The translations under genes and the position numbers were made by a program. From positions 1 to 64,000 of the forward strand of contig NZ_JASBQE010000051.1 of the NCBI RefSeq assembly GCF_029960785.1: a stretch of DNA of 64,000 nt, read 5' to 3'. Under the pieces are notes generated by a model that was not told the DNA's origin, did no database searches, and worked only from the letters and a program-made list of their open reading frames with translations. Shown here one piece after another: positions 1-59,204 of the stretch. Every line of letters begins with the position of its first letter. Position 1 is the stretch's first letter. The DNA is from Polyangium sp. 15x6. Its GTDB lineage: Bacteria > Myxococcota_A > Polyangia > Polyangiales > Polyangiaceae.

Positions 1-138
1 TTCGCTCCGCAGTACGCCGACGTCGACCTCCACATCTCGCCCTGCTTCGGGGTTTGTCCACGGGACATGCCCCCCGCCTTACACCATCGCGCGATGGTTT
101 GGTAGAGAAAAACACCAGCCATCTAGGGTCGCTCACCC
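1..138. other. Window edge, coding status unclear
   Basis: The bases before the first clear gene. On the + strand one frame is open from base 1 to a TAG at 103-105, so this could be the last 34 codons of a gene entering from the left. On the - strand an ATG at base 68, preceded by a purine-rich stretch, opens a frame that runs off the edge and would be divergent from the next gene. Neither translation resembles a family I know, so I cannot choose between them. Confidence 0.25.
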
Positions 139-2478
139 ATGGATCCCAATGCAGCGTTGCACGACGCCCTCGCCGAGTTTTTCGCGGCTTTTTCAGCGAA
201 TTTCCTCCAAGGACCGCGCGAAATCCCCCCGTTCACTGCGAGGCTCGTCGGGACGTCGATCGAAGTGACCCTCCAGGTAGGCGAGGGCGAGCCGACCGTC
301 ATCCGCCAGCGGGGCTCCGCCCTTTACCTCCTCGCCGGGCGGCTCTGGGCCGTGGCCCGCGCGAGCGAGGGGCACGGCCAGCGTTGTCTGCTGCCGACAC
401 TCACCCCCTACCCCCTCAATTTCCCGACGGAATGGAAGAACTGGCAGAATCTCCAGAATGCGGCGCTGCCCGCGGTGGGCCGGATCGCGTTGGCGCTCGA
501 TGACGATGCGCACGACGAGGCGGTCCTCCTCGTCCGACACGTCCTCGACGTCGATTCCGGCTATTGGCTCGAGCTCGAGCGCGCCGTGCCGAACGAGCTC
601 CGGAAGGAGGTGCTCGCGAAGCTGTCCGAGCTCAAGCAGCGGACCAACTCGACCTCCTCCCTCAGCGGCCACTTGAAAGTGCTCGCGTCTCATACCGGGA
701 GCAGCGATCCGCGCGAGCGCCTCTTCGTGGCCAAGCATTATCGATACACCACGAAGCACCTCTCGAGCGACAATCACCTCACGTTCCTAAAAATTATCCA
801 GCCTGCGCTCGAGGCGTGGCTGAAGGAAGAGGACGGCGCCATCTTCGAGACGGCGGTGGGGATCGCCGAGATGCTCGGGTACAAGCTGTTCGAGCGCGGC
901 GCCTACGCCGAGGCCGAGCCATTGCTGTCGGCGGCGCTCGACGCGGGGATTGCCGGCGCGGAGCTGCTCCGCGCCCGCTGGGAATGCCGACTCTATCGCG
1001 GCGACGAACGCGCGGCCGCGGAGGACTGGCGCGCGGCCGAGCCGATCGACGACCCGGCGCAAGGACTCTCGTTCGGCTTCTTTCATCGGGGCGACCGGCA
1101 GGATCGAAAGGCGATGGGGCTCGGGCGGGTGGCGCGATCCCTCGGAAAACTCGCGAGCGGGGAAGACCCCTGCCGCGATCGGCCCAAGACCAAAAAGCCC
1201 AAGGCCATCTCCGCGACGGAGCGTTCGTCGCTCCTCGCGAGGGCGCGCGTATTCGCCGACGAGGCGGTCGCCCTCATCGACGAGCGCGCCCGAGGCGACG
1301 AGGCTCGCGCCCGCGCCGGCCAGGGGGTCACGGATCGCGGCTTCGAGTCGCGCATTTTCGCGGCGCGGGCGTTGGTCCGCGAGGCGTCGGGGGACGCGGC
1401 CGGCGCGCTCGACGATTATCGCCGGGCGCGGACGCTCGGCACCGCCGCCGGGCTCTCCTGGCAAGGTGACCTCCATGGAGAGGACATCCGGCGCCTCGAG
1501 GGTGCGGGCAAGGTAAATGGCGGCGCGATCCCGGAGAGCTTCGACCCCGTCTGGTTCCTTGCGAGCGAGCGCAACGACGACGAACGCAGCCGCGCGGCCG
1601 CCGCCTGGTGCGCACAGCCCTGGCGCGTGGTCCCCGATGCTCGCCAGCGCGGCACATCCATTCCGATCGCGTTCGCCCTGGTCAAGGCCATCGTCGATCA
1701 TTCGGCGGCCCTGTGGAAGCTCGGCGAGGCGGACGGCGTGAAATTGCCCGATCGGCTCGAGTTCGTGCAGCGGGCCCGACCGCTCCTGGATCGCTTCGCC
1801 GACCGGCGCGACGCAGACCGTCTGGAAAGCGTCCTCGACGACGCGCACGAGATCGCGTTCGATGTCTTGCCCCGCAATGAAACGGCCGAGCGCGTGCCTT
1901 TCTTCACTTTCCTGCGAGCGCTCGGCGACGCCGAGACGATCGATGAGGAGCGTGTCCTCTCCGCGCTCGGCGACGACGCGTGGAGCCGCTTGCGGCGGCA
2001 ACTCGAGGCCAAGCTCGACAAGCTCGACCCGCTGCGTGACGTCTTCGACGCGACCGTCCGCGCCGGCGCGCCGATGGCTGCGGTCGCCGCGGCGCTCGCC
2101 GCCTACCGGGAGCTCTTCCGGAACGATTGGGGATCCTTTGCCACGCCGCGGCCGCCCTGGGAGAAGCTCGCCAAGCCGCTCGAACAGGCGGACGGCGCGA
2201 AGCTCGCCCCGGCGCTGATCGAATGCATCCGCCGCGAGCAATCCGTGCCAGATCATTACGGCCTGACGCGCCTGCCGGCGAAGTCCCTCTGGCCGCTCTT
2301 CTACGCATGGCACCCCTCGACCGAGGCATTCCTGCTCGAGGTGCTCAAGGGGAAGCTCGACAATGGAAAGAGCCTCTCCGCGACGCAGCGCAAGACACGC
2401 CACGAATGCCTCTCCTGGTTTGCAGACGAGAAGAAGCTCGCCAAGCTCGGCGCGGCGCTGGCGAAGAGAGGCCGATAG
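139..2478 (+). CDS. Unrecognised large soluble protein with TPR-like helices
   Basis: I do not recognise a family for this 779-residue protein. It has no signal peptide or membrane segment, so it should be cytoplasmic. Residues about 235-300 (for example AEPLLSAALDAG) and about 385-435 (AGALDDYRRARTLG) look like paired amphipathic helices of the TPR kind. A Lys/Pro-rich break near residue 350 separates two helical halves. The ATG at 139 has no good Shine-Dalgarno, so a slightly different start is possible. The long frames on the opposite strand are shadows of its GC-rich third positions. It is followed by 188 bp without a gene, then the lipoprotein gene at 2667, so co-transcription is not obvious. 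Confidence 0.75.
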   Translation: MDPNAALHDALAEFFAAFSANFLQGPREIPPFTARLVGTSIEVTLQVGEGEPTVIRQRGSALYLLAGRLWAVARASEGHGQRCLLPTLTPYPLNFPTEWKNWQNLQNAALPAVGRIALALDDDAHDEAVLLVRHVLDVDSGYWLELERAVPNELRKEVLAKLSELKQRTNSTSSLSGHLKVLASHTGSSDPRERLFVAKHYRYTTKHLSSDNHLTFLKIIQPALEAWLKEEDGAIFETAVGIAEMLGYKLFERGAYAEAEPLLSAALDAGIAGAELLRARWECRLYRGDERAAAEDWRAAEPIDDPAQGLSFGFFHRGDRQDRKAMGLGRVARSLGKLASGEDPCRDRPKTKKPKAISATERSSLLARARVFADEAVALIDERARGDEARARAGQGVTDRGFESRIFAARALVREASGDAAGALDDYRRARTLGTAAGLSWQGDLHGEDIRRLEGAGKVNGGAIPESFDPVWFLASERNDDERSRAAAAWCAQPWRVVPDARQRGTSIPIAFALVKAIVDHSAALWKLGEADGVKLPDRLEFVQRARPLLDRFADRRDADRLESVLDDAHEIAFDVLPRNETAERVPFFTFLRALGDAETIDEERVLSALGDDAWSRLRRQLEAKLDKLDPLRDVFDATVRAGAPMAAVAAALAAYRELFRNDWGSFATPRPPWEKLAKPLEQADGAKLAPALIECIRREQSVPDHYGLTRLPAKSLWPLFYAWHPSTEAFLLEVLKGKLDNGKSLSATQRKTRHECLSWFADEKKLAKLGAALAKRGR

Positions 2479-2666
2479 CAGGGACGGTCGATTTTTCCCG
2501 TGATGGAGGAGGGCTCGGGCCCATTGTCTTCATGGGACCTACGAAAAACGCAAGCGCGATGGACCGTTCTCCGGCAAGGTGCGTGTTTCCAGGCCCCCGG
2601 AGCAGCATGGTTCCTGCGGCTCGGGAAAACGTCTCGATCTTTCACCACGAAACAGAGGTCCTTTTC

Positions 2667-3839
2667 ATGAACTACGTTCATCGAGGAGCGTCCGGCGGAA
2701 TCCTCATCGCCGCGCTGGCGACGCTCGTGGCATGCGGCGGCGGCGGCAGTAACCCCGGCGCCGGTGGCTCGGGTGGCTCGGGCGGCACCGGCGGCACTGG
2801 CGGAATGGCTACAGGGGGCAGCGCCGGCATGGGCGGCGGTGGGGGCGACATGCCCGACGCGGGGCCCGATGCATCGACGGGCGGGGGCACGCCCGGCGGC
2901 ACGGTCGAAGTGCTCGCGGGCGCTGTGGGCGAGGCGGGGCACGTCAATGGCCCCAAGGGCACCTCCCGGCTCCGCGATGTCGGAGGGATGGTCTATATCG
3001 CGCCGACGCTTCATGTCGCCGACCGCCATGCTGCCATCCGCAAAATCGATGTGAACACCGGCGTCACGACCACCGCCCCCAACGACGACGGCCTCGACGC
3101 CGAGTTCTTTCAGCCTATCGCGCTGGCGACCGGCGGCGGGAACTCGCTCTACGTGCTCCAGGGGCTCAAGACCATGATGAATGGCGTCGTAGGGCAGGTC
3201 TCGCGGTACAACGTGGGGAGCGGCGTCATCGAGGCGGAAATCACGCTCGATTCTTACCAGGAGCTGCCTTATGACCTGTTCGACCCGGTGCCCTTCGCGG
3301 TCGAGCCGTCCGGGAACGTCCTCGTCGGGGAGAAGGCGCGCGTCTCACCTTCGACGCTCATGGTCTCGAATATCGGGATCCGGGAGGTCTGGGGCACGAG
3401 CGCATCGCTGACCGCGTGGGTGCCGGCGAATGGCACGATGTACACGGTGCATCGAGCGCCATCGTTCGTGCTCGAGAGCGATCTCGCCGCCAAGACCTGG
3501 AAGCTCGTCGCCGGCACCGACATGAACCAGGCCGAGCCTGCCGTCGACGGCCCCAAGGAAACGGCGCGATTCTCCAATCGCGTCGGCGGAGCGTCCCACG
3601 ACGGCAATGGGCACCTCTACGTCGCCGACACCAACGCGAACGCCGTGCGCAAGGTGGATCTGGCGACGGGAGCGATCACCACCGTCATCGGCGAGCTCTC
3701 GCCCGTCGGGAGCATCGTGACCGGGGACCTGAAGACAGCACGATTGCACCACCCGCAATGGGTGACGTGGCTCGGCGACGGCAAGCTCGCCATCGGCTGC
3801 CCCGAGGATTTCGTCGTACTGATCGCCACCGGCCTTTGA
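2667..3839 (+). CDS. NHL-repeat (beta-propeller) lipoprotein
   Basis: A 390-residue exported lipoprotein. The reading frame is open further upstream, but ATG 2667 has an AGAGG Shine-Dalgarno nine bases away and begins a proper signal peptide ending in the lipobox LVAC (Cys23). A Gly/Ser-rich linker (about 24-75), typical of myxobacterial lipoproteins, leads to a propeller domain. NHL-type repeats are visible, for instance NGHLYVADTNANAVRKVDL followed by a T-G-x-I-T-T-V-I-G turn. NHL propellers usually bind proteins or glycans; no catalytic site is evident. Predicted to sit in the outer membrane or periplasm. The 132 bp up to the AraC gene hold nothing I recognise. Confidence 0.85.
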   Translation: MNYVHRGASGGILIAALATLVACGGGGSNPGAGGSGGSGGTGGTGGMATGGSAGMGGGGGDMPDAGPDASTGGGTPGGTVEVLAGAVGEAGHVNGPKGTSRLRDVGGMVYIAPTLHVADRHAAIRKIDVNTGVTTTAPNDDGLDAEFFQPIALATGGGNSLYVLQGLKTMMNGVVGQVSRYNVGSGVIEAEITLDSYQELPYDLFDPVPFAVEPSGNVLVGEKARVSPSTLMVSNIGIREVWGTSASLTAWVPANGTMYTVHRAPSFVLESDLAAKTWKLVAGTDMNQAEPAVDGPKETARFSNRVGGASHDGNGHLYVADTNANAVRKVDLATGAITTVIGELSPVGSIVTGDLKTARLHHPQWVTWLGDGKLAIGCPEDFVVLIATGL

Positions 3840-3971
3840 CCAAGCGGTCGTACGGGCGCTGCTGCAGACCCGTTTCCCCGACGTACGGCAATTCTCTTTA
3901 CCGTATCACGGGCTGCAGTACGATCGGAGGTTGGGACGGCCATTCCCGTCACGCAGCGCGGAGCCCGATTC

Positions 3972-4856
3972 ATGACGAGCCTCAGCCCCAGCCTGCACGC
4001 CCACCGCCACTTGCGCGCCGCGATGACCCTGTCGAGCTGGGAGGCGGGCTGGCGCTCACTGCTGCTGCGCGGGTATGTCGATCCGCCCGAGGTCGAGGAG
4101 TTCAAGACGCCCGCCACGGCCGATCACCTCATCGTGCTCGTCACGGACGGCGCCTGCGACATCGAGGCGCGCTACCGCGGACGCTGGCAATCGGCCCACT
4201 ACGAGCCGGGTCACATCGGCATGACCGCCCCCGGCCAGGAGGCGACGCTCCGCTGGCGCGGCCAAACCACGCACAGCACGCTGCAACTGCACCTGCCCAC
4301 GCCGACGCTCCAGCGCGTGTTCCGTGATCTCTCCGCCGGCGATCCCGAGCGGCTCGAGATGCCGAGCATGCTGGGGAGCGTCGATCCGCTCGTGCAGCAG
4401 ATCATGCTCGGCCTCGCGCGCGCCCTCTCGGCCGGCGTGCCCGATCTTTACGCGGAATCGGCCGGCGAGCTTCTGGCCGCGCACCTCTTGGTCCACCACG
4501 CATCCCGGCCGGCGCCGCGGCCGGTGAGCGCGCGTGATACGCTGCGGCTGCGCCGGGTCGAGGCGTTCATGCGCGAGCACCTCGGCGAACCGCTCTCCCT
4601 GGAGACGCTCGCGCAGCAGGCGGGCGTGAGCCGCTTCCATTTGCTGCGGCTGTTCAAGCGCGCGAACGGGGAGACGCCGTTCGCTCGCCTGACGCGGCTG
4701 CGCATCGAGGAAGCGCAGTGCCGCCTCGCGCGCGGCCGCCAGTCGGTGACGGAGATCGCGCTCGCCTGCGGCTACCAGAATCCCGCGCACTTCGCCTCCG
4801 CGTTCCGCCGGCTGGTCGGCGTGTCCCCTACGAGCTACCGGCGCGGCGCCCGCTAG
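3972..4856 (+). CDS. AraC-family transcriptional regulator
   Basis: A 294-residue AraC/XylS-type regulator. The N-terminal ~170 residues form the cupin-like sensing domain (AraC_binding_2 style). The C-terminal ~100 residues hold two helix-turn-helix motifs: LETLAQQAGVSRFHLLRLF, then the second with the family hallmark in ALACGYQNPAHFASAFRRL and a final G-x-S-P-T-x-Y-R-R. The ligand is unknown. The SDR dehydrogenase gene lies 177 bp downstream in the same direction, a common arrangement in which the regulator controls the neighbouring oxidoreductase. Start ATG 3972 gives the normal family length. Confidence 0.92.
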   Translation: MTSLSPSLHAHRHLRAAMTLSSWEAGWRSLLLRGYVDPPEVEEFKTPATADHLIVLVTDGACDIEARYRGRWQSAHYEPGHIGMTAPGQEATLRWRGQTTHSTLQLHLPTPTLQRVFRDLSAGDPERLEMPSMLGSVDPLVQQIMLGLARALSAGVPDLYAESAGELLAAHLLVHHASRPAPRPVSARDTLRLRRVEAFMREHLGEPLSLETLAQQAGVSRFHLLRLFKRANGETPFARLTRLRIEEAQCRLARGRQSVTEIALACGYQNPAHFASAFRRLVGVSPTSYRRGAR

Positions 4857-5033
4857 AACATCGAGCGGTTTGCAACCGGTCGATGCTCCAGCTCTCGCGC
4901 CCGTCCGGGCGGCGAGACCGCGCACGGCAATCGCGCGGTGCTCCACGGCAATCCCGCGAATGCCGCGGCGCGCGCGCGGACGCAGGATCCTCTCATCGAG
5001 ACGCGGCAAGCGCTCGATCAGGAGAATGACGAC

Positions 5034-5768
5034 ATGGCAACCGAGAGAGTGGCGATCGTGACCGGTGCGTCCCGCGGCATCGGCGAGGCGGTCGCGAAGC
5101 GTCTGGCGCGCGACGGCTTCAGCGTCGCCGTCAACTACGCGGGCGAGGCGGCAGCCGCCGAGGCGCTTTCGCAATCCATCGAAGCGACGGGCGGCCGCGC
5201 GCGGGCGATCCAGGCGGACGTGAGCGATCCGGCCGCGGTGCGCGCGCTGTTCGACGCGACGGAGGCGGCGTTCGGCGGCGTCGACGTGCTGGTGAACAAC
5301 GCCGGCGTCATGGTGCTCGGCGCCATCGCCGACGTCGATGATGCGACGTTCGCACGGCAGGTGGCGGTCAACCTCCAGGGCACGTTCAACACGCTGCGCG
5401 AAGCTGCGCGGCGCCTGCGCAGCGGCGGCCGCATCATCAACTTCTCCTCGAGCGTGGTCGGCCTGCTCCAGCCGACCTACGGCGTGTACGCGGCGACCAA
5501 GGCGGGCGTGGAGGCGATGACCAGCATTCTGGCCAAGGAGCTGCGCGGCCGCGACATCTGCGTCAACGCGATTGCGCCGGGCCCGACCGCGACGCGGCTG
5601 TTCCTCGACGGCAAGTCCGAGGAGGCGATCGATCGGCTCGCGAAGCTCGCGCCGCTCGAGCGGCTCGGGCAACCGGAGGACATCGCGGCGGTGGTCTCGT
5701 TCCTGGCGGGGCCGGATGGGGCGTGGATCAACGGACAAACGCTGCGCGCGAACGGCGGAATCATCTGA
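5034..5768 (+). CDS. SDR-family NAD(P)-dependent oxidoreductase
   Basis: A classical short-chain dehydrogenase of 244 residues. The cofactor loop TGASRGIG is near residue 10, NNAG in the middle, and the catalytic Ser-Tyr-Lys set is visible (SSS near 140, then YAATK). An open frame extends upstream, but ATG 5034 has AGGAG nine bases before it and starts exactly where SDR folds start. The substrate is unknown; FabG-like and sugar/steroid dehydrogenases share this pattern. It is probably regulated by the AraC protein encoded upstream. Confidence 0.92.
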   Translation: MATERVAIVTGASRGIGEAVAKRLARDGFSVAVNYAGEAAAAEALSQSIEATGGRARAIQADVSDPAAVRALFDATEAAFGGVDVLVNNAGVMVLGAIADVDDATFARQVAVNLQGTFNTLREAARRLRSGGRIINFSSSVVGLLQPTYGVYAATKAGVEAMTSILAKELRGRDICVNAIAPGPTATRLFLDGKSEEAIDRLAKLAPLERLGQPEDIAAVVSFLAGPDGAWINGQTLRANGGII

Positions 5769-6031
5769 CGTGCGCGCGAACGGCCGCCGCTCTTCGGGCA
5801 CCGGCGCCACGACGCAGACGGTGACGTTCGGCGCGCAGGTGGGCGCGCGCCCTCGGCCTCCATGACACGCGTCGGCTTCGAGCGGACGCCGCAGCACGGA
5901 GCCTTCGGTGGAACGGGCTTGAACGGCGCCCGTGGAGATGCGAAGGTCGAACGGACGCGCGAAGCCGCCGCACGGCGCTGATCACCGTCCTCGCGGCGAG
6001 CGTCGACGACCACGGCGAACCGGTGTTGAGC

Positions 6032-7759
6032 ATGGCCCCCAAGCAGCTACGGAGCTTCATCGCGCGCCTTTACGAAGCGAAACATTTCGAGGACGCGGCA
6101 TTCCTGATCCTGCGCGAGGCGCTCGACGTGGCGAAAAGAGCGCTCTCGAAGAGCCCCTTCGTGAAGCACGGCCGCGTCCTGCGCGGCATGGTCCATTTGC
6201 GACCCGCGGACGGATACCAGCGGCTGGTCGTCGTGGACGAGCCGTCGCCGAGGCCCGCAGGCTCCGCTTCGCCCATGCATTTGCCGTCCGCGAGCGCGTG
6301 GCGATGGGTCGCGCGCCGCGTCGCGCCCGTCGCCATCGACGTGCCGCTCGGGCGCGTCCGCGTGTTCGCCGACGGGAACATCGACGTCGTGGCGGAGGGG
6401 GGTTTTCTGGAGAGCGAGAGCATGCAACGGCTGACGAGCCGGGAGGCGAGCCACCTCCTCGCCGTGCCGATACGATCCATGCGCGGCGTGGTCGAGGGAA
6501 TGGCCACGGTAGAGATCGGCTGCCCGCGGGCCGTGGGGGAGGACTTCATCTTCGCGGCCGTGAGCGAGGAGCTTCAAATCCTCGCCGACGTCGCGTCACC
6601 CTACCTGGTGGGCCTACCGCTGCGGCCCGCCTCGACGTGCCCGACGGACGACCTCTTGCCCGTCGTCGGCCCGGCCATGGCGGCGCTCGTGGAGATGCTC
6701 CGGATCTTCGCGCAACAGGAGGAGACGCTCCTCATTGGCGGGCCCACGGGCGCGGGCAAATCACGGCTGGCGCTCTGGTGCCACGCGCAATCGCCGCGGC
6801 GTGATGGTCCGTTCGAGGTCCTCGACCTCATCACGGTCCCCGAGGATCTCCAGATGGCCGAGCTCTGCGGGTGGCGAAAAGGCGCTTTCACGGGTGCGGC
6901 GCGCGACGCGCCCGGCGCCGTCGCGCGCGCCCTCCGGGGCACGCTCTTCATCGACGAGATCGACAAGCTGTCCTTGAAGGCGCAGGCAGGGCTCCTGCGC
7001 CTGCTCGAGACCAGGAAATACCGTACGCTGGGGGATACGGGGCGCGAGCAGAGCGCCGATGTGCGGTTCATCGTCGGGAGCAACGCGAACCTCCTCGAGC
7101 TCGTGGAGCAGGGGCGGTTCCGGGAGGATCTTTATTACCGGGTCAATGTGCTACCTGTGAAGCTGCCTTCCCTCGACGAGCGTCGTGACGAGATATCGCA
7201 ATGGGCGTGCTTCATGGCCCTGCGCCGGCATCGCGAGTCGGTCCCCAATGGGCACATCCGTGTCGCGGCGGGCGTCGATCGGCTCCTCTGCGAGCGAACG
7301 TGGCCCGGCAATCTACGCCAGCTCGATAACGTGGTTCGCCGCGCCTACGCGCTCGCGTTGATGAGCCAGGGGGCCACGGCCACCGAGATCGTCCTCGAAG
7401 AACGCCATTTCATTCGAGCGTTGGGCTACGAGGCCGGCGGCGGACGGCGCTCCCTGCTCGAGAGCATGCGGAGCGCGGCGGCCGCGTTCGTCGAGGAGGC
7501 CGAGCGGCTCGAAGAGCGGGGCCTGGGGCTCGATCTGGATCATGGGGATGCATTCCGGGGTTTCATCCTCGGCACCGCCGTCGAGCGGCTCGGCAACCGG
7601 GAGTCCGCGTTCCGGATGCTGGGCAAGGCGCAGCAGGTACAGAGCCGCAACCACCACAAGATGCTGCGCCGCGAGCTCGAGAAGGTGGACGCGCTCTGCA
7701 AGGCCATCCGCGAGGAAGACACGAAGCTCTTTTCAGCGCTCTCGGACGACGAGTCCTGA
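6032..7759 (+). CDS. Sigma-54-dependent transcriptional activator (GAF-like sensor, AAA+)
   Basis: A bacterial enhancer-binding protein of about 575 residues (ATG 6032; GTG 6023 is an alternative). The N-terminal ~195 residues look GAF-like and should be the sensor; there is no receiver domain. The AAA+ domain has Walker A GGPTGAGKS (236-244), the sigma-54-contacting loop GAFTGA (284-289) intact, Walker B LFIDEID, and the arginine-finger region REDLYYRVNVLPV. The C-terminus ends in a weak Fis-like helix-turn-helix (AVERLGNRESAFRMLG) after an unusual acidic helical insert. It should activate sigma-54 promoters, possibly those of the lipoprotein genes downstream. The 263 bp upstream hold no gene I can support. 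Confidence 0.9.
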   Translation: MAPKQLRSFIARLYEAKHFEDAAFLILREALDVAKRALSKSPFVKHGRVLRGMVHLRPADGYQRLVVVDEPSPRPAGSASPMHLPSASAWRWVARRVAPVAIDVPLGRVRVFADGNIDVVAEGGFLESESMQRLTSREASHLLAVPIRSMRGVVEGMATVEIGCPRAVGEDFIFAAVSEELQILADVASPYLVGLPLRPASTCPTDDLLPVVGPAMAALVEMLRIFAQQEETLLIGGPTGAGKSRLALWCHAQSPRRDGPFEVLDLITVPEDLQMAELCGWRKGAFTGAARDAPGAVARALRGTLFIDEIDKLSLKAQAGLLRLLETRKYRTLGDTGREQSADVRFIVGSNANLLELVEQGRFREDLYYRVNVLPVKLPSLDERRDEISQWACFMALRRHRESVPNGHIRVAAGVDRLLCERTWPGNLRQLDNVVRRAYALALMSQGATATEIVLEERHFIRALGYEAGGGRRSLLESMRSAAAAFVEEAERLEERGLGLDLDHGDAFRGFILGTAVERLGNRESAFRMLGKAQQVQSRNHHKMLRRELEKVDALCKAIREEDTKLFSALSDDES

Positions 7760-7902
7760 GCGAGGAGGGCCCCTTCCCGGCGCCGATGCGGCTTGAGGCT
7801 CACCGGAGGCGCGCCGCCGTATTCGCCGACAGGAGGGCTTGGCGGGGCAGGCGCGGAAGCGCCCCGGAAGACGTGTTGACAGTCGCTTGTCGGATAGGAT
7901 AC

Positions 7903-8823
7903 ATGTTCAAACAAAACATGAACGACATTCTCTCGTCGAACCGTCCCAATCTCCTCGCTCTCTTTTTCGCCTGCCTGAGCCTCTACGGCATGGGTTGTGC
8001 GCTCGACAATGGCGAGAGCCAGGCCGATCCCGAAGATGTTCTGCTCGGCGTCGCGGAGCAGGGCGTTGGAGGGGATCCAAACACGGGTAACCACCTCCGG
8101 CCTGCATGCTTCTGGGATCACGGCGCCCAGCAGACCGCCCGGGACCTCAGCGCCGCCGCGCTCGTGGGAAGCACCGACCAGTTGCCTCCCATGCCCTACC
8201 TGCTCGCGCCTGACACGACGGGTGACCTGGAGAATTGCCGGCAGGACTTCCTGGAGGTCCTCGTTGGGTGCGCTCTTCCTGTGGGGGACCTCGTCGAGGA
8301 TACGAGCGATGACAATGCGGTCAGCGGATACAAAACCTACGCCGGGTACGTCGGGATCGCTCCGGACTGGAAGACGCGAGCGCTCAACGCGACGGAGAAG
8401 GCGTTCATCACGGGCTGCATGCTCGAGCGCATCAATGCTCTTGGAATGCTCAACCCCATTCTCCTCCAGGGTGATCATGACGTGCTCGAACCTGATGACG
8501 AGCTTCTCGACCTTTATCCCATCGTCGAGTCCACCGCGTGGGGAAACCTGTTCGACTCTACGGTCACGCTCAACCCGATGCGTGACCCCGAGGAGCCGAC
8601 GCTCCCGGCGTTCGGCGCATTCGTATGCAGCCACCTGGACACGTGCGCGACCATCCCGACGCTCGGCCGGACCTGCTATGAGGACGGCTGCGGCATGACG
8701 GCGCTTGGCTCGTGCGACGACGTCGACGCCTCGTGCCAGGCGAATCCGAATCAAGCTGCCTGCGCGGGGCGAACGAATGCAGTCAGCACGCGCCTTCTCG
8801 AAAGCGCGGTCGTTTGTGACTGA
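7903..8823 (+). CDS. Cys-rich lipoprotein, paralogue A of a pair
   Basis: A 306-residue protein of no named family. The hydrophobic N-terminus ends in LYGMGC (Cys32), a likely lipobox. The frame is open upstream but signal-peptide logic places the start at ATG 7903 or ATG 7918. A TTGACA at 7876-7881 with a -10-like GATACA 16 bp on would favour 7918. It is clearly related to the protein at 10231-11172: both share NTGN, a C-x-x-DHG-x-QQT stretch, EFLxVLVGCALP-like and VEST-x-WGN-x-FDSTV-x-LNP blocks, and many cysteines at matching places. Exported, function unknown. The two genes enclose a Ser/Thr kinase gene. Confidence 0.8.
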   Translation: MFKQNMNDILSSNRPNLLALFFACLSLYGMGCALDNGESQADPEDVLLGVAEQGVGGDPNTGNHLRPACFWDHGAQQTARDLSAAALVGSTDQLPPMPYLLAPDTTGDLENCRQDFLEVLVGCALPVGDLVEDTSDDNAVSGYKTYAGYVGIAPDWKTRALNATEKAFITGCMLERINALGMLNPILLQGDHDVLEPDDELLDLYPIVESTAWGNLFDSTVTLNPMRDPEEPTLPAFGAFVCSHLDTCATIPTLGRTCYEDGCGMTALGSCDDVDASCQANPNQAACAGRTNAVSTRLLESAVVCD

Positions 8824-8903
8824 GGATCCGTAGGCCATCGAGCGGATCGGCAACCGAGAGGCAGCGACGAGTCTCGAGGGGCCAGGGCCACTCCCCTGCG
8901 CCG

Positions 8904-10064
8904 ATGCGCCTTGATGTCCGCGCGAGGGTCCGTTACGTTCGTCGAAGCATCTTGGATTCCTTGTTGCTCGATAAGTACGAGATCCTGCGCGTCCTCGGGC
9001 AGGGCGGGATGGGGACCGTCTACGAGGCGCGCGAGGCCGGCTCCGGGCGCCGCGTGGCAATCAAGTGGATGCACACGCGTCCGTTCACCCAGGATGATCC
9101 GGACCTCCTGCGGTTCAAGCAAGAGGCGCGCATCGCGGGTACGCTCGACTCGCCGAACGTGACGGCGGTCCTCGAGCTCGCGCGGGACCCGAAGACGGAT
9201 ATCGTTTTTCAGGTGATGGAGCTCCTCGAGGGCGAGGACCTGCGGTCGCTCGTCGAGCGCGTCGGTCCGCTTGCGCCGGACGTCGCGCTCCGTATCACGG
9301 CGCAAGCGTGCTCGGGGCTTGCTGCAGCGCACGCGGCGGACGTGGTGCATCGGGACATCAAGCCGGAGAACCTGTTCCTCGCGCGGAAGGGGGACGGCGA
9401 GGTGGTCGTCAAGCTGCTCGATTTCGGGATCGCGAAGATACGCCGCTCGCACGGGGATGCGAGCGGGTCCGGTGGGAGGTCGGCACCTCCGGTGCCCATG
9501 ACGACGACGGGACAGATGCTCGGGACGCCGCTGTACATGGCGCCGGAGCAGATCGACGCGGCGAAGCACGCGGACGCGCGCAGCGACGTGTATTCGATGG
9601 GCGTGACGCTTTACACGATATTGACGGGGGCGCCGCCGCGCGCGCACATAAAATCGCTCATGCAGCTCGTGCACGCCATCCTCACCGAGCCCGTCCCGCC
9701 ACTCGCGGATCGCGCGCCCTGGGTGCGCCCAGAGGTCGTGGCGATCCTCGAGAAGGCGATGCACGCGGACCGGGAGGCGCGGTACGCGAACGGCGCGGAG
9801 CTTGCGGCGGAGCTCACGCAGCTCCTTCCGGGGGGAACGGCGCTCCGCGAGGAGATGCTCGTGGGGATCGGGGACGAGCAGCGGAAGGTGGCGGCCGCGT
9901 CCGCGGAGACGCAGCGGCGGGCAGAGACGGCGACGGCGCGAGGCAAGCCGGTGGAGGCGGCGCTGAGGGAGAGGCGCTCGCTGCCGCGGTGGGCTCTCTG
10001 GGCGGCGCTGGTCGCGGTGATGGCGGGCGGGATCGTGGCCGGGATGTTCGTCGTCGGGCAGTAG
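8904..10064 (+). CDS. Ser/Thr protein kinase with C-terminal membrane anchor
   Basis: A Hanks-type kinase of 386 residues. Glycine loop LGQGGMGTVYEA, ATP-binding Lys54 in VAIKW, catalytic HRDIKPEN, DFGIAK, and GTPLYMAPEQ are all present, so it should be active. After the kinase domain comes a short charged linker and one hydrophobic helix at 364-383 that ends the protein: a tail anchor with no outer sensory domain. The exact start is uncertain; ATG 8904 is used, TTG codons near 8952 would leave a shorter N-terminus. It sits between two paralogous lipoprotein genes in the same orientation, suggesting a functional link. Confidence 0.9.
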   Translation: MRLDVRARVRYVRRSILDSLLLDKYEILRVLGQGGMGTVYEAREAGSGRRVAIKWMHTRPFTQDDPDLLRFKQEARIAGTLDSPNVTAVLELARDPKTDIVFQVMELLEGEDLRSLVERVGPLAPDVALRITAQACSGLAAAHAADVVHRDIKPENLFLARKGDGEVVVKLLDFGIAKIRRSHGDASGSGGRSAPPVPMTTTGQMLGTPLYMAPEQIDAAKHADARSDVYSMGVTLYTILTGAPPRAHIKSLMQLVHAILTEPVPPLADRAPWVRPEVVAILEKAMHADREARYANGAELAAELTQLLPGGTALREEMLVGIGDEQRKVAAASAETQRRAETATARGKPVEAALRERRSLPRWALWAALVAVMAGGIVAGMFVVGQ

Positions 10065-10091
10065 CGTACCTGAGGGACGCGGGTGGACGCA

Positions 10092-10116
10092 GGCTGCGTA
10101 CCCAGGGGACGCAGCC
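10092..10116 (+). terminator. Hairpin after the kinase gene
   Basis: Perfect 8-bp stem (GGCTGCGT / ACGCAGCC) with a 9-base loop, 27 bases after the kinase stop codon. No T-run follows, so it would be a weak or Rho-assisted terminator. Confidence 0.4.
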
Positions 10117-10230
10117 GACCCGCGTAGCGCTCTTCATGCGGCGAGATGCTCTGGCGCGGCGCGGGTTTCGGGGCTGGCACGCGTCCTGCTCATAGGCCCG
10201 GCCGTGGGGCAACTTCGAGGAGCAATGGCC

Positions 10231-11172
10231 ATGGCACACGCATATTCTTTGCATTTCCGCAATCTGATCAACCTCGGGCTCGTCGGGATGGCGCTTTATG
10301 GAATGGGGTGCGCCCTGGAAGACGCGGCAGTCGACCCCAACCTGTTCGATGATCCGACGCTTCACGGAGCCGGGGGCGAGCCGAACACGGGCAATACCCT
10401 CCTACCTGGATGTCTCAATGATCACGGCGTCCAGCAGACCGTTCGAACCCTCGGCGCTGCCCGGCTCTCGAGCTACCTGCTCGACACCTTGCCCTCCATG
10501 CCGTACATGCCCGCGGGCGACGCGGCGGGCACGCTTGCAGGCTGCCGGCGCGAGTTTTTGAAGGTCCTCGTCGGATGTGCGTTGCCCACGGGCGCGTCGG
10601 TCGTCGACTCGAACGACCCCATCGTGATAGGCACCGGGACGGTCACGAGGAAATACTGGGGACAGATCGGGCTCGCCCCGGACTGGGAGACACGAGCGCT
10701 GACCACGGAGGAGAAGGAGTTCGTCACGGCCTGCGTGATGGCACGCACGAACCGATTCGGGGAAGAGATCGATATCTTGCTCGACGGAGATCACCCGGAG
10801 ATCGAGCCCGACTCGGCCTTACAACTCACTTATCCCTATGTGGAGTCCACGGTATGGGGAAACATGTTCGACTCCACCGTCCCGCTCAATCCGACGCACG
10901 ACCCGAACCACCCCACCCTGCAGCCCTTCAATGCCCACGTGTGCAAGAACTACTCCGACTCGACCTGCCCGGATGCGGCCTTCCGAGTCTGCGACGAGAG
11001 CGACGACTGTGGTTTCATCAATCACGGCCCTTGCAGCTTGATGAATTGCATACCCATCCTGGGTGGCTCCGTCTCCGCCAGTTGCACCGCGTGGCCGAAT
11101 CGCATCACGATCTATTTGACGGACCACGCGACGGTCTGCCCTATCCCGATCGATCCCCCGATCGATCCCTGA
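10231..11172 (+). CDS. Cys-rich lipoprotein, paralogue B of a pair
   Basis: A 313-residue paralogue of the protein at 7903-8823, sharing the lipobox LYGMGC (Cys27 here) and the main sequence blocks. A Shine-Dalgarno GAGGAG at 10217-10222 is eight bases from ATG 10231, which decides this start over the ATG two codons earlier. The C-terminus differs from paralogue A: it is Cys-rich and ends in a Pro/Ile-rich tail. Function unknown; exported and lipid-anchored by prediction. It is convergent with the kinase-TPR gene, with 22 bp between the stops. Confidence 0.82.
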   Translation: MAHAYSLHFRNLINLGLVGMALYGMGCALEDAAVDPNLFDDPTLHGAGGEPNTGNTLLPGCLNDHGVQQTVRTLGAARLSSYLLDTLPSMPYMPAGDAAGTLAGCRREFLKVLVGCALPTGASVVDSNDPIVIGTGTVTRKYWGQIGLAPDWETRALTTEEKEFVTACVMARTNRFGEEIDILLDGDHPEIEPDSALQLTYPYVESTVWGNMFDSTVPLNPTHDPNHPTLQPFNAHVCKNYSDSTCPDAAFRVCDESDDCGFINHGPCSLMNCIPILGGSVSASCTAWPNRITIYLTDHATVCPIPIDPPIDP

Positions 11173-11194
11173 GCGGCCCGGACGCGCCTCGGCG

Positions 11195-14100
11195 TCACTC
11201 CACCAGCGAGGCTTCCTTGGCCTCCCGCGCGTACCTCACGGCGAGCCGCGGGTTTTCCCGAAATGATGCGGCGAATGCCTCGCTCGCCGCGCGCGCGGCC
11301 TCCCGTCGCGCCTCCCCCCGCGCGCTCCTCGCCCGGACGAGCAAGAGCAGGCCGCGCGATGCGAGCGCCATCGGGTGACGAGGGTTGAGCGCCAGCCCCT
11401 TCTCCACCATGCGCAGGCCCGCCTCGACGTCCCCGGCCGGGCTCTTCCTCTGCTCTTCGAGCCAGAGAGCCCGCTGTACATGAATCTCGGCGAGGAGCTG
11501 GTAGAGCCTCGGCTCGTCACGCTTCTTCGACAGGAGCGGCCGGAGGGGCGACATCGCGGCCTCGAAGCTGGCCTCGCTCGCGCGTTTTTCCTTCATGGCC
11601 ACACGGGCCACGTAAAGCTCCATGCGCGCGAGCAACGCGGATCCGTCGATCGCCTCGCCGTCGGTTATGGATCTCCGGACGCTCTCCCGCTCGGTCGAGA
11701 GCTCCGGCAAGGGCGCGCGGCCCATCGCGAACGCGTGCTCCGCCTCGACGAGGCGGATCTCCGCCATCTCGCGGACGAGGAAGCCGCCCTCTTCGGCCTG
11801 ACCCATGAAGGGCCGCAACGCCTCGACCGCCTTCGTGATGGATGGCCCAGGATCCATGCCGGCCGAGAGCTCGTACGTCGCGCGAACACGAAAGGCCTTT
11901 GCACTCCAGAACGCGGTGATCCAACCGCCGAGCTTCTGCCGCTCGAGCTGCGCGACGGCCTCCGACAGGATCACGAGCGCAGCCTCGGCGTCCGCGCCGA
12001 TGTCTCGCTCGTACTCGACGCGATGAAGCCCTGCGCGGACCATCCCGTAGACAGGCAACGAGAAGCTCGGATCCACTACAATGGCACGCTCGAACTCCTT
12101 CGTCGCGCGCTCGAGCATGGGTCGAGGAGCGGTCCCGTACAGACGATCGACGGCCGACTGCAGAAGGTAGGCTTGCCCGAGCTCGTTCAAGGCCCACGAG
12201 AAGCGCGGGTCCACCTCGAGCACCCGCTGGAATGCGTCGATCGCCGCCGCGAACGACGCTCGCCGGCCGCGATCGCTCTGGAGCAGGGATTGCCGCATCA
12301 GCGTCGCCGCGCGCGCATAAAGGGCCATGGGGTCACGCGGGCGGACACGAACGGCGTCCTCCGTGGCGGAGAGCGCCGCGCGCTCGGCTTCGTCGACGTC
12401 GCCCCTCGTGTCGACTGCAACGGAGAAGCGCGCGTTCATCGCTTGCGCGCGCTGCACACGCGCCCGCGCGTCCCTCGAGCTCGAGGTCACCGCGCGGGCG
12501 CACGCCGCGTCGGCGGCCTCGAACTCGCGTAATGCCTTGCTCCCCTTCGCATAAGCCGCCCACCCCATCTTCTCCCAGAGCTCACACTCGGCCCGATACA
12601 CCTCCGGATCGCTGCTCCCGATCTCCCTCGCCACCCTGTACGCCTCGGCCGCGGGCTCGAAGTACGACTTCATCTTCTCGTGATCGAAGGCGGCATCGTG
12701 CCGGTATTTGCTGCCCTCGGCGAAGAGCGCGTCTCCCTCGAGCTTCTTCGGCTCGTGCATCCACGGCGCCTGCTCGAACGCCATCTGCGCCTTCGCGATC
12801 GCCTCCTCGTTCTTTCCCTCGTACAGCGCGACGAGCCCCTCCGCATACGACGGCGATTCGAGCCTCACCCCCGTCGCCGCGCGGAGGTGCGCGAGCGCCG
12901 GATCTCGCAGCGACCGCTCGAGCTTCGCCACCTCCGCCTTTCGCTCCGCCTCGTTCGTGATCCGCTTCGTCTCCTCGACCGCCCGCCGGAAGAGCTCCCC
13001 GAGCGCGTGCCCGAGCGCATATTCGAGATCGGCCGACGAATACCCCGCCGCAATTGCGCGCTCCAGGTGCTCCCGCGCCTGCTCCGGATCCCCCAGCGCG
13101 AGGTGCCCCCGCCCGAGCGCATAATGCCGGGGCCCCTCCCCCACGCTCCCCGCAGAGACCGCGCGCTGCTCGATCTCGCGCAGCCTCGCGCGCACCACGT
13201 CCCGCTCGCGCTCGACATCGTGCACGGGCAGCGCGTACGCGGCGCGCAAGAAGAGCTCCATCTCCTTCACGCTCTCCCCGAGCTCCTGCGCCAGGCGCTC
13301 GCGCGCCGCCGCCTGCCTCTGCGCGCGCGCATAAACGCCCGCGACGGCGAGCGCGCCCAATGCGAGGACGACGAGCAGCGCCGTGAGCAGCTTGTTTTTC
13401 TTGACCTTCTTCAGGAGCACATACCCGAACGAAGCCCGCTTCGCCAGGATGGGCTCGCCGTCGAAGTACCGCTGCAGATCCTCCGCCAGCGCTCGCGCCG
13501 ATTCGTAACGACGCGCAGGATCGCGCTCGAGGCATTTCATCACGATCGTCTCGAGCTCCTCCGGCACCCCCGCCTTCACCTTCCCGAGCGGCGGCGGGTC
13601 GTCATAACCGACCATCAGGAGGAGCCTCAACTGGCTGTCCGCGACGAAGGGAGGACGCCCCGCGATCACGTCGTACAGCGTCGCACCCAGCGAATACACG
13701 TCCGAGCGGCGATCCAGCGCCCGCACGTCCCCGCGCGCCTGCTCCGGCGGCATGAACGCGAGCGTCCCCACCACCGCCCCCGACTGCGTTTGCCCCTCGT
13801 CTTCGATCTGACGCGCCAGCCCGAAATCCATCACGTAAGGTTTCTTCGTCCCGTCCTCGCGCTCCTCGACGAGGATGTTGCCGGGCTTGATGTCGCGGTG
13901 GATCATCCCGACACGGTGGGCTTCGTGCACCGCCAGGCAGACTTCCTTCATCAAATAAACGCACTGCTCCAGGGCCAGCCGCTGGCGCACCACGGAGAGC
14001 GGCTCGCCGTCGATGAATTGCATCGCGATGTACGGCTCGCCGTCTGCCTGGCCGGCCTCGTAGATGGGGCAGATATGCTCGTGCTGAATACGCGCCTGCG

Positions 14101-56173: not shown

Positions 56174-56307
56174 GGCTCTTCCATCCCGACAACATCCACG
56201 CCCCACTGCGTCACCACCTGGTCCGAGGCTCCCGGGATCGGGACGGCGGCACCATAGCCGTCGATGACGGGCCAACGGGGCTCCGTCCATTCTGGAGGGA
56301 TACGGCC

Positions 56308-56415
56308 ATGAACAACGTCCTCGCGTTGCAGAAGATCTCCGTCGACCGCCACGATAACCCCGAAATGTGCTTCTCGGTCATTAGCAGCATCATCGCCTGC
56401 GTCCGCCCCAGCTGA
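56308..56415 (+). CDS. Class III lanthipeptide precursor (labionin-type core)
   Basis: A 35-residue peptide encoded just before the LanKC gene. GGAGG lies at 56294-56298, nine bases before the ATG. The leader begins MNNVLALQKISVDR: V-L-x-L-Q fits the [I/L]-L-x-L-Q motif recognised by class III synthetases (as in labyrinthopeptin precursors). The core, roughly after Glu19, is Met/Cys/Ser-rich and contains Ser23-x2-Ser26-x4-Cys31, the S-x2-S-x(3-5)-C pattern converted to labionin, plus a second Cys at 21 and Ser27. It should be dehydrated and cyclised by the neighbouring enzyme. No transporter or leader peptidase gene is adjacent. Confidence 0.8.
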   Translation: MNNVLALQKISVDRHDNPEMCFSVISSIIACVRPS

Positions 56416-56472
56416 CGTTTCCAGGCTATCGAAGCAAGCTTCCGCAGACACGGCCGAATCGTCTTTTTTAGC

Positions 56473-56524
56473 TTCATGGCGGCCTGCGGCAGCTCTCGTG
56501 TCGCTGCGCGCAGGCCGCCATGAA
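56473..56524 (+). terminator. Long hairpin between lanthipeptide precursor and synthetase genes
   Basis: A perfect 16-bp stem (arms 56473-56488 and 56509-56524) with an inner 5-bp stem (GCAGC / GCTGC). It lies between the precursor stop (56415) and the synthetase start (56553). It is probably a partial terminator that keeps precursor mRNA in excess over the enzyme. An ATG at 56520 inside the right arm is not the synthetase start. Confidence 0.65.
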
Positions 56525-56552
56525 CTCGTGTGTTTCACGAGGAGGGCGGGAC

Positions 56553-59204
56553 ATGTCGGATATCGAGCGGAGAGCGAGACACAATCTGATCCTCTTCACG
56601 TTCAACCACCCGGAGGAGTACTCGAGCCTCGAACGATATCAATCGACGACGGCCGACTTCCAGGCGCTGGTGAAGGAATTGCTGCCGCCCGGCTGGATCC
56701 TGGACGACGGTGTCGGGATCTGGTGCAGGGTCAGGCCGCCGATCGACCGGACGCCGGAGGCGGGTTTCAAGATTCACCTCTCCGCGACGGACGAAAACGC
56801 GAGGGCCCTCCTCGCGACGGTCGTGCCCATCCTCACGGCAGAAGGCGCCGCGTTCAAGTTCCTCGCCGATCGGGCCATGCTCGATCTCAACAACTCCAGC
56901 GGCCGGGACCGAGGATCGTGCGGCAAGTTCATCACGGTATACCCCGCCGACCTCGACCGTTTCCGTACGTTGATGCAGCGCCTTCACGAGGTCACGAAGG
57001 GCTTTGCAGGGCCCTATATCCTCTCCGACAAGCGGTACGAGGGCAGCAAGGTCCTGTTCTATCGCTACGGCGCATTCAGGAGCACGCTCCGCGTGAGCAC
57101 GTACGGCGAGATGGAACCGTTTTTCGCGACGGCGGACGGCCGGCAGATCCGAGATCAGCGGTTGCCCTATTTCTCGCTGCCCGACGGAATCGCCGATCCC
57201 TTCCCGACCTCCGCGAGCGACAGCGCCGAGCCCATCCTCAAAGGCCGCTACCGAGCAACCCACGCGATGAGCGTCTCGAGCAAGGGAGGAGTCTATCGAT
57301 GCACCGACCTCGAGACAGGCGCAGAGGTCGTGGTCAAGGAGGGACGCCCTTTCGTGAACCGCGGCAGGACGAACCCCCACGACGCTGCCGATGGCCTGAA
57401 GAACGAATACGAGATCCTGCGATTGCTGGAGAACACGGGCGTGACGCCGAGGGCGCTCGACTTCTTCATGGAGTGGGAAAATAGCTTCCTGGTCATGGAG
57501 CTCGCGCAGGCGAGGCCTCTGTCTACTCACATGGCATCCAACGAGGGCACCTCGATTTTGCTCACGACGGGGACCACCGTCGCCGACGTGAAGCGGTACT
57601 GCGCGGATTTTCTCGGGATCTCCGAACGGCTCATCGCCGGCGTTCGAGCCATCCATTCGCGGGGTGTCGCGATCCAGGATCTGGCGCGGCAGAATGTCCT
57701 ATTCGATCCGACCGAGCGGACGGTCATGTTCGTGGATTTCGAGAGCGCCTACGCCGAGCGCGGCGGGAACGAGGGCCCCATCATTTACGTGTACACCCCC
57801 GGCTTCGGGGAAGATCAACGACGGTCGGGCAAGCCCCCGACGATCGCTGCCGACCATCGGGCGCTGAGCCGCCTCCTCGGGGATCTGCTTTATCCAGTGA
57901 CCCCCTTCTTCGCGCTCGCGCCCGAGCGCCGGCGGCCCATGCTCGAGCACGTCGCGCACGAGAAAGGGCTCCCCGACCCGATTGTCCAGCTCATCCTCGG
58001 TGTGGGTGAACAGCCCGAGAGGATCGACGCGTTGATGGACGAAGCCAAGCGCAGCCTCGCTGACATCGCAGTGGCGCGACGAGCACCGCATGTCCCGCAG
58101 GACGACGCTCTCCGCCGGATCGTCTCCGACATTGCGAACTACATTGGGGAGAAGATTTCCACAAAGGATCCGCTGGATCTGCCGACGGACTACCGGCGTT
58201 TCACGACGAACGCACTGAGCGCCGCCTACGGCGCGTCCGGCATCGCCTGCGCCCTCCAGCGCGTGACCGGCGAGGTGCCAGCGGAGATGCGCGAGGCGCT
58301 TTCGGCCGAGGCGCAGCGCGTCGATAACGACCACTACCCGTCCGGGCTGTATGTCGGCACGGCGGGGATCGCGTGGGCGTTCCTCGAACTCGGAATGCTC
58401 CGTGAAGGCGAAGCTCTCATGCGCGTCGCCGCGCGCTCCCCGATCCGGTTCGAGAGTGCCGACATGTTTTACGGCGCGGCTGGTCATGGCCTCGCCAACC
58501 TCTTTTTCTTCGAGCGGCTGGGCGACGAGGCGTACCTCGCGAACGCGGTCGACGCGTTCCTTGCCATCGAGCCGAAGCTCCAGCAGGCCTTGGGAGGATA
58601 TTGCTACGTCAACGCGGGCCATGTCTACCACGGCATCGCGCACGGCGCTTCCGGCATCGGCTACTTCCTGCTACGTCTCCACCTCGCGACGAGGCGGGCG
58701 GAGCACCTGGAGTATGCCACAGGGCTCCTGGACTTCGAATTGGCGAGCGCCGAAGAACGACAGGGGCAAATGATGTTTCGCCGTGCTGCCGGGGAGCCGG
58801 TGTTCTCGCCCTACTGGCGGAGCGGCAGCGCGGGAATCGGCAGCGTCGCGCTGCGCTTCCACGAGGTGCTGGGGGACGAGCGGTACCTCTCGGCGGCCCG
58901 CAGGATAGCCCGATACCTGGAAGACAAATACACCGTCTTCCCGGGAAATCTCTGCGGCATGGCGGGGCTCGGGAACTTCTTCGTGGACATGTACCGGGCG
59001 ACGCGTGACGAGGCTTTCCTCGAAGAGGCACGCCGGTTCGTCACCCGGATCATGCTGTTCGCGCTCGAGAGGCCGGGGGGAATCGTCTTTCCTGGCGAGG
59101 AGTTGCTCCGCGTCTCCACCGACTACGGGACGGGCTCCGCTGGAATCGGGGTCTTCATCCACCGGATCCTCACCTCCGCGGGCATTCCCTTCTTCGATTT
59201 CTGA
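56553..59204 (+). CDS. lanKC: Class III lanthionine synthetase LanKC
   Basis: An 883-residue three-domain enzyme: N-terminal phosphoSer/Thr lyase (about 1-220), Ser/Thr kinase (about 230-500) and LanC-like cyclase (about 545-883). In the kinase VVVKEGR carries the ATP-binding Lys, IQDLARQNVLF the catalytic Asp, and FVDFES the metal-binding Asp. The cyclase has the helical toroid repeats (YGASGIACAL, GTAGIAWAFLEL, HGASGIGYFLL, SGSAGIGSVAL) but lacks the Cys-Cys-His zinc site (LCGMAG where LanC has CHG), which defines class III. The frame is open from 56520; GAGGAGGG before ATG 56553 decides the start. It phosphorylates, eliminates and cyclises the peptide encoded at 56308. Confidence 0.93.
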   Translation: MSDIERRARHNLILFTFNHPEEYSSLERYQSTTADFQALVKELLPPGWILDDGVGIWCRVRPPIDRTPEAGFKIHLSATDENARALLATVVPILTAEGAAFKFLADRAMLDLNNSSGRDRGSCGKFITVYPADLDRFRTLMQRLHEVTKGFAGPYILSDKRYEGSKVLFYRYGAFRSTLRVSTYGEMEPFFATADGRQIRDQRLPYFSLPDGIADPFPTSASDSAEPILKGRYRATHAMSVSSKGGVYRCTDLETGAEVVVKEGRPFVNRGRTNPHDAADGLKNEYEILRLLENTGVTPRALDFFMEWENSFLVMELAQARPLSTHMASNEGTSILLTTGTTVADVKRYCADFLGISERLIAGVRAIHSRGVAIQDLARQNVLFDPTERTVMFVDFESAYAERGGNEGPIIYVYTPGFGEDQRRSGKPPTIAADHRALSRLLGDLLYPVTPFFALAPERRRPMLEHVAHEKGLPDPIVQLILGVGEQPERIDALMDEAKRSLADIAVARRAPHVPQDDALRRIVSDIANYIGEKISTKDPLDLPTDYRRFTTNALSAAYGASGIACALQRVTGEVPAEMREALSAEAQRVDNDHYPSGLYVGTAGIAWAFLELGMLREGEALMRVAARSPIRFESADMFYGAAGHGLANLFFFERLGDEAYLANAVDAFLAIEPKLQQALGGYCYVNAGHVYHGIAHGASGIGYFLLRLHLATRRAEHLEYATGLLDFELASAEERQGQMMFRRAAGEPVFSPYWRSGSAGIGSVALRFHEVLGDERYLSAARRIARYLEDKYTVFPGNLCGMAGLGNFFVDMYRATRDEAFLEEARRFVTRIMLFALERPGGIVFPGEELLRVSTDYGTGSAGIGVFIHRILTSAGIPFFDF

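Follow-up and report, generated by a model that had tools for sequence, protein, structure and literature searches.

Two adjacent genes in the window, the 64-kb stretch of DNA analyzed here, very probably form a minimal class III lanthipeptide operon, for which we propose a pathway with a single ring. The first gene encodes a short precursor peptide (LanA) and the second encodes its putative lanthionine synthetase (LanKC). This reading follows from the anatomy of the pair, the domains and catalytic residues of the enzyme, the match of the leader, and the positional conservation of the pair in relatives. The features of the locus are listed below.

56294..56299, + strand: ribosome-binding site of the precursor gene, GGAGGG, read from the sequence.
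56308..56415, + strand: precursor peptide gene (LanA), 35 amino acids, MNNVLALQKISVDRHDNPEMCFSVISSIIACVRPS, recognized from the ORF, NF038154, relatives, and a motif scan.
56473..56524, + strand: long GC-rich RNA hairpin between the precursor and LanKC genes, z -4.4.
56553..59204, + strand: class III lanthionine synthetase LanKC, 883 amino acids, with lyase, kinase, and zinc-site-free cyclase domains, recognized from NCBIfam, Pfam, and comparison with structures and relatives.

The original prediction placed a 35-residue precursor with a strong ribosome site in front of LanKC, and the analysis agrees, with GGAGGG located 8 bases 5' of the precursor ATG. The leader reads M-x-x-V-L-x-L-Q (with L5-A-L7-Q8) and is amphipathic with the (L/I)-x-L-Q motif of class III precursors. 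The core, FSVISSIIACVRPS, contains only one S-x2-S-x4-C, formed by S23, S26, and C31, which fits the class III core pattern S-x2-S-x2-5-C. The predicted L-x-L-Q leader and Ser-x2-Ser-x4-Cys core are thus both present, and an extra cysteine, Cys21, lies outside the ring motif. The residues by which the leader of ThurA contacts ThurKC of the andalusicin system (Met-22, Val-19, Leu-18, Leu-16, and Gln-15) correspond with identical spacing to M1, V4, L5, L7, and Q8 of the window peptide. The precursor scores a borderline 21.9 bits against NCBIfam NF038154 (lanthi_III_a), 0.1 bit below the curated cut-off of 22, and so falls just outside that family. Its leader positions 1-20 match the class III precursors of NF038154, and the match stops before the core. 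The SapB/AmfS model NF033212, which describes a two-ring core and has a cut-off of 25 bits, does not match the peptide.

Since the reading frame is very short and its score lies just under the curated cut-off, it might be a chance ORF, with LanKC acting on a precursor encoded elsewhere. We regard this as extremely improbable. On both strands, ORFs of 25-90 residues were sought in which S-x2-S-x2-5-C follows the leader motif, and exactly one was found in the 64-kb window, the one at 56308-56415. In Markov-simulated sequence 0.2 such ORFs are expected per 64 kb, and 0.025 when an ATG and a ribosome site are included. The scan returned no other precursor candidate in the window or in the next 20 kb. 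In a genome-wide NF038154 search the window precursor was the best match by far (19.7 bits; next 14.0), and its position and leader are conserved in three relatives.

LanKC begins 137 bases after the precursor stop, at the ATG at 56553 in the context GAGGAGGGCGGGAC-ATG with its own ribosome site, and ends at 59204. The start is supported because the relatives begin M-x-x-I-D-R-R. It is the sole LanKC of the genome. It scores 712.8 bits against the NCBIfam class III model NF038151 (cut-off 575) and stays under the class IV cut-off (556.6 vs 650 bits). Pfam finds RamC_N, Pkinase, and LANC_like, so that a lyase, a Ser/Thr kinase, and a LanC-like domain are joined in one protein as is typical of class III. 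The structurally solved relatives are CurKC (8car) and ThurKC of Bacillus thuringiensis (8sao, 8sap, 8sam), and both share the three-domain architecture and the lyase residues with the window enzyme. Mutation has shown that the ThurKC lyase needs K65, H67, K94, K117, D152, R163, and R191 (PMC10604976). These seven residues correspond to K73, H75, K102, K125, D159, R171, and R203 of the window LanKC, while the counterpart of ThurKC Lys108 is not a lysine. The kinase residues K262, D376, N381, and D395 are present, and the catalytic set of a class III lyase and kinase is thereby represented. The NisC zinc ligands Cys284, Cys330, and His331 read R756, C801, and G802, which leaves no canonical zinc site, as had been predicted, and the enzyme lacks the Cys-Cys-His ligand set in the way class III cyclases do. 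The Sorangium relatives lack even the remaining cysteine. The cyclase residue His697 (GIAHG) is kept as in CurKC, whereas ThurKC has Asp667.

The three LanKC genes closest to that of the window (57-59% identical) are found in Sorangium, which belongs to the same family as the host, whose genome measures 13.4 Mb. Each of the three loci (So ceGT47, NZ_CP012670.1, and two more) encodes a short leader-matched peptide at the same upstream position, with a strong ribosome site before it and a strong hairpin after it. Conservation of the peptide beside homologous LanKC genes was the point on which the original prediction had said it could fail, and these peptides bear it out; together with the NF038151 match they uphold the assignment to class III. 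The Sorangium leaders read MKKILSLQKLS or MKKKILSLQKLS, with LSLQKLS as their common element, and are followed by a Gly-rich stretch and two ring motifs. The peptides score 33.9-51.7 bits against NF033212. The first ring of two of these peptides (SNLSLLATC, SNISLLLPC) has the S-x2-S-x4-C spacing of the window motif SVISSIIAC. The Sorangium loci have two S-x2-S-x3-4-C rings, a Gly-rich spacer in which 6-15 glycines separate the leader from the core, and, next to the precursor, a divergent ABC exporter (about 586 residues) that has no peptidase domain, whereas the window has one ring motif and neither a spacer nor an adjoining exporter. The window locus is a pared-down relative of the Sorangium SapB/AmfS-type loci and not a new kind of system. 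The Sorangium SapB/AmfS-like precursors are located as follows.

L011:9146-9283: precursor.
L012:12151-12282: precursor.
L013:9084-9248: precursor.

One Sorangium-genus genome, G165, has a second LanKC copy (L014, G165:C1:6675000-6694999, 8751-10613, - strand) that matches only over its C-terminal part. No recognizable precursor was found at L014, and this copy is probably a decayed paralogue.

LanKC is rare in the order, occurring in 6 of 184 genomes (host included), and its close form (57-59%) is found in the three Sorangium-genus genomes. At E <= 1e-20, no additional LanKC turned up among 379 genomes drawn from across the phylum. Five other genomes of the genus have neither LanKC nor the gene pair. 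In the congener G150 the two flanking genes lie far apart, at 4.1 and 12.7 Mb, so that they mark no simple insertion site. LanKC enzymes are known mostly from Actinobacteria and Firmicutes (PMC7268733). Neither the window locus nor the Sorangium loci were found described in literature searches. Calling the locus unlisted was nevertheless an overstatement, as LanKC lies far above its NCBIfam cut-off and the precursor narrowly misses an existing family. What is unusual is the host group, the lack of an exporter at the locus, and a one-ring core that is reduced relative to the sister loci. The genome G146 contains two LanKC loci that are more distant, with class III-like precursor candidates downstream of LanKC, one of them of the SapB/AmfS type.

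L015:11342-11479: candidate class III precursor in G146.
L016:8859-8969: candidate class III precursor in G146.

A reduced or lost function of the window pair is possible, because its core is shorter than those of its nearest relatives, a second ring and an exporter are missing, and five congeners lack the pair. Carried to its end, this would make the locus what is left, in decay, of a two-ring SapB/AmfS cluster of the Sorangium type that has lost its exporter and second ring and whose peptide is no longer made. The second ring motif, poly-Gly spacer, and divergent exporter of the relatives are all missing here, L014 illustrates that copies of this lineage do decay, and the five LanKC-less genomes fit the same picture. 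We nevertheless consider decay unlikely, since the LanKC reading frame runs unbroken through 883 residues and retains the catalytic residues that were tested, the genes have good ribosome sites, conservation of the leader is complete, and no second ring can be read in other frames downstream of the peptide.

The hairpin between the two genes recurs in all four loci (window and three Sorangium; z -5.7 to -7.2 in Sorangium). The window hairpin occupies the same position as those of Sorangium and is unrelated to them in sequence. A T-run resembling a terminator follows the hairpin in G165, whereas none was found in the window; scanning the intergenic region for promoters, terminators, and Rfam families yielded no usable result. 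An origin from a local repeat family was rejected, as the exact arm occurs only here in the window. The element is probably an attenuator or an mRNA-processing hairpin that sets precursor over enzyme.

In the functional operon that we favor, LanKC would bind the amphipathic leader and phosphorylate serines of the core (S23, S26, and perhaps S27), and elimination of the phosphate would yield dehydroalanine. Cys31 would then be joined to the dehydroalanines without zinc, giving a short hydrophobic core with one labionin or lanthionine ring, and the hairpin would probably keep precursor mRNA in excess over LanKC mRNA. Labionin had been predicted, and the motif permits it, but cores of the S-x2-S-xn-C type can give plain lanthionine instead (PMC7268733), so either ring may form. 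ThurA1 undergoes 11 dehydrations, whereas the window core offers four serines at most. Judged by the SapB/AmfS-type peptides that its relatives encode, the product may, as a guess, be a surface-active or developmental peptide. With two genes and one predicted ring, the locus offers a simple setting in which to test how rings form without zinc, and whether myxobacteria may use such a peptide at the surface or as a signal.

Removal of the leader and export would fall to proteins encoded elsewhere in the genome. The pair is flanked upstream by an R2K ATP-grasp-like gene and downstream by the gene of a DUF5050-type repeat protein; these immediate neighbors include no transporter, protease, or regulator, as was originally noted. 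Class III leaders are known to be cleaved off by peptidases of families S9 (prolyl-oligopeptidase) and M1, which are often encoded away from the cluster (PMC10885120), and the proteases of the ThurKC system likewise lie outside its cluster. The suggested genome check for such partners returned, above the cut-off, eight matches to S9_N prolyl-oligopeptidase and eleven to M1 peptidase, and Pro18 of the leader would suit a FlaP-like enzyme. The closest match in the genome to the Sorangium cluster exporter is found on contig C202 (G000:C202, 66% identical), and the five same-genus genomes, none of which has LanKC, all contain a homologue that is 93-97% identical to it. As a core gene of the genus that is kept in LanKC-less genomes, it was rejected as a split-off cluster exporter, and it may or may not export the window peptide. 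We entertain, with considerable doubt, that the pair is a streamlined functional one-ring branch of the lineage shared with Sorangium, which gave up its dedicated exporter and whose product is carried by this core ABC exporter.

The same genome contains a second RiPP cluster (L031, G000:C227:40000-59999, 53-12417). Genes for a YcaO protein, a ThcOx/nitroreductase-type oxidase, a LanM (DUF4135, with a LanC-like match), and an ABC exporter lie side by side there, which suggests a combined azoline and lanthipeptide pathway.
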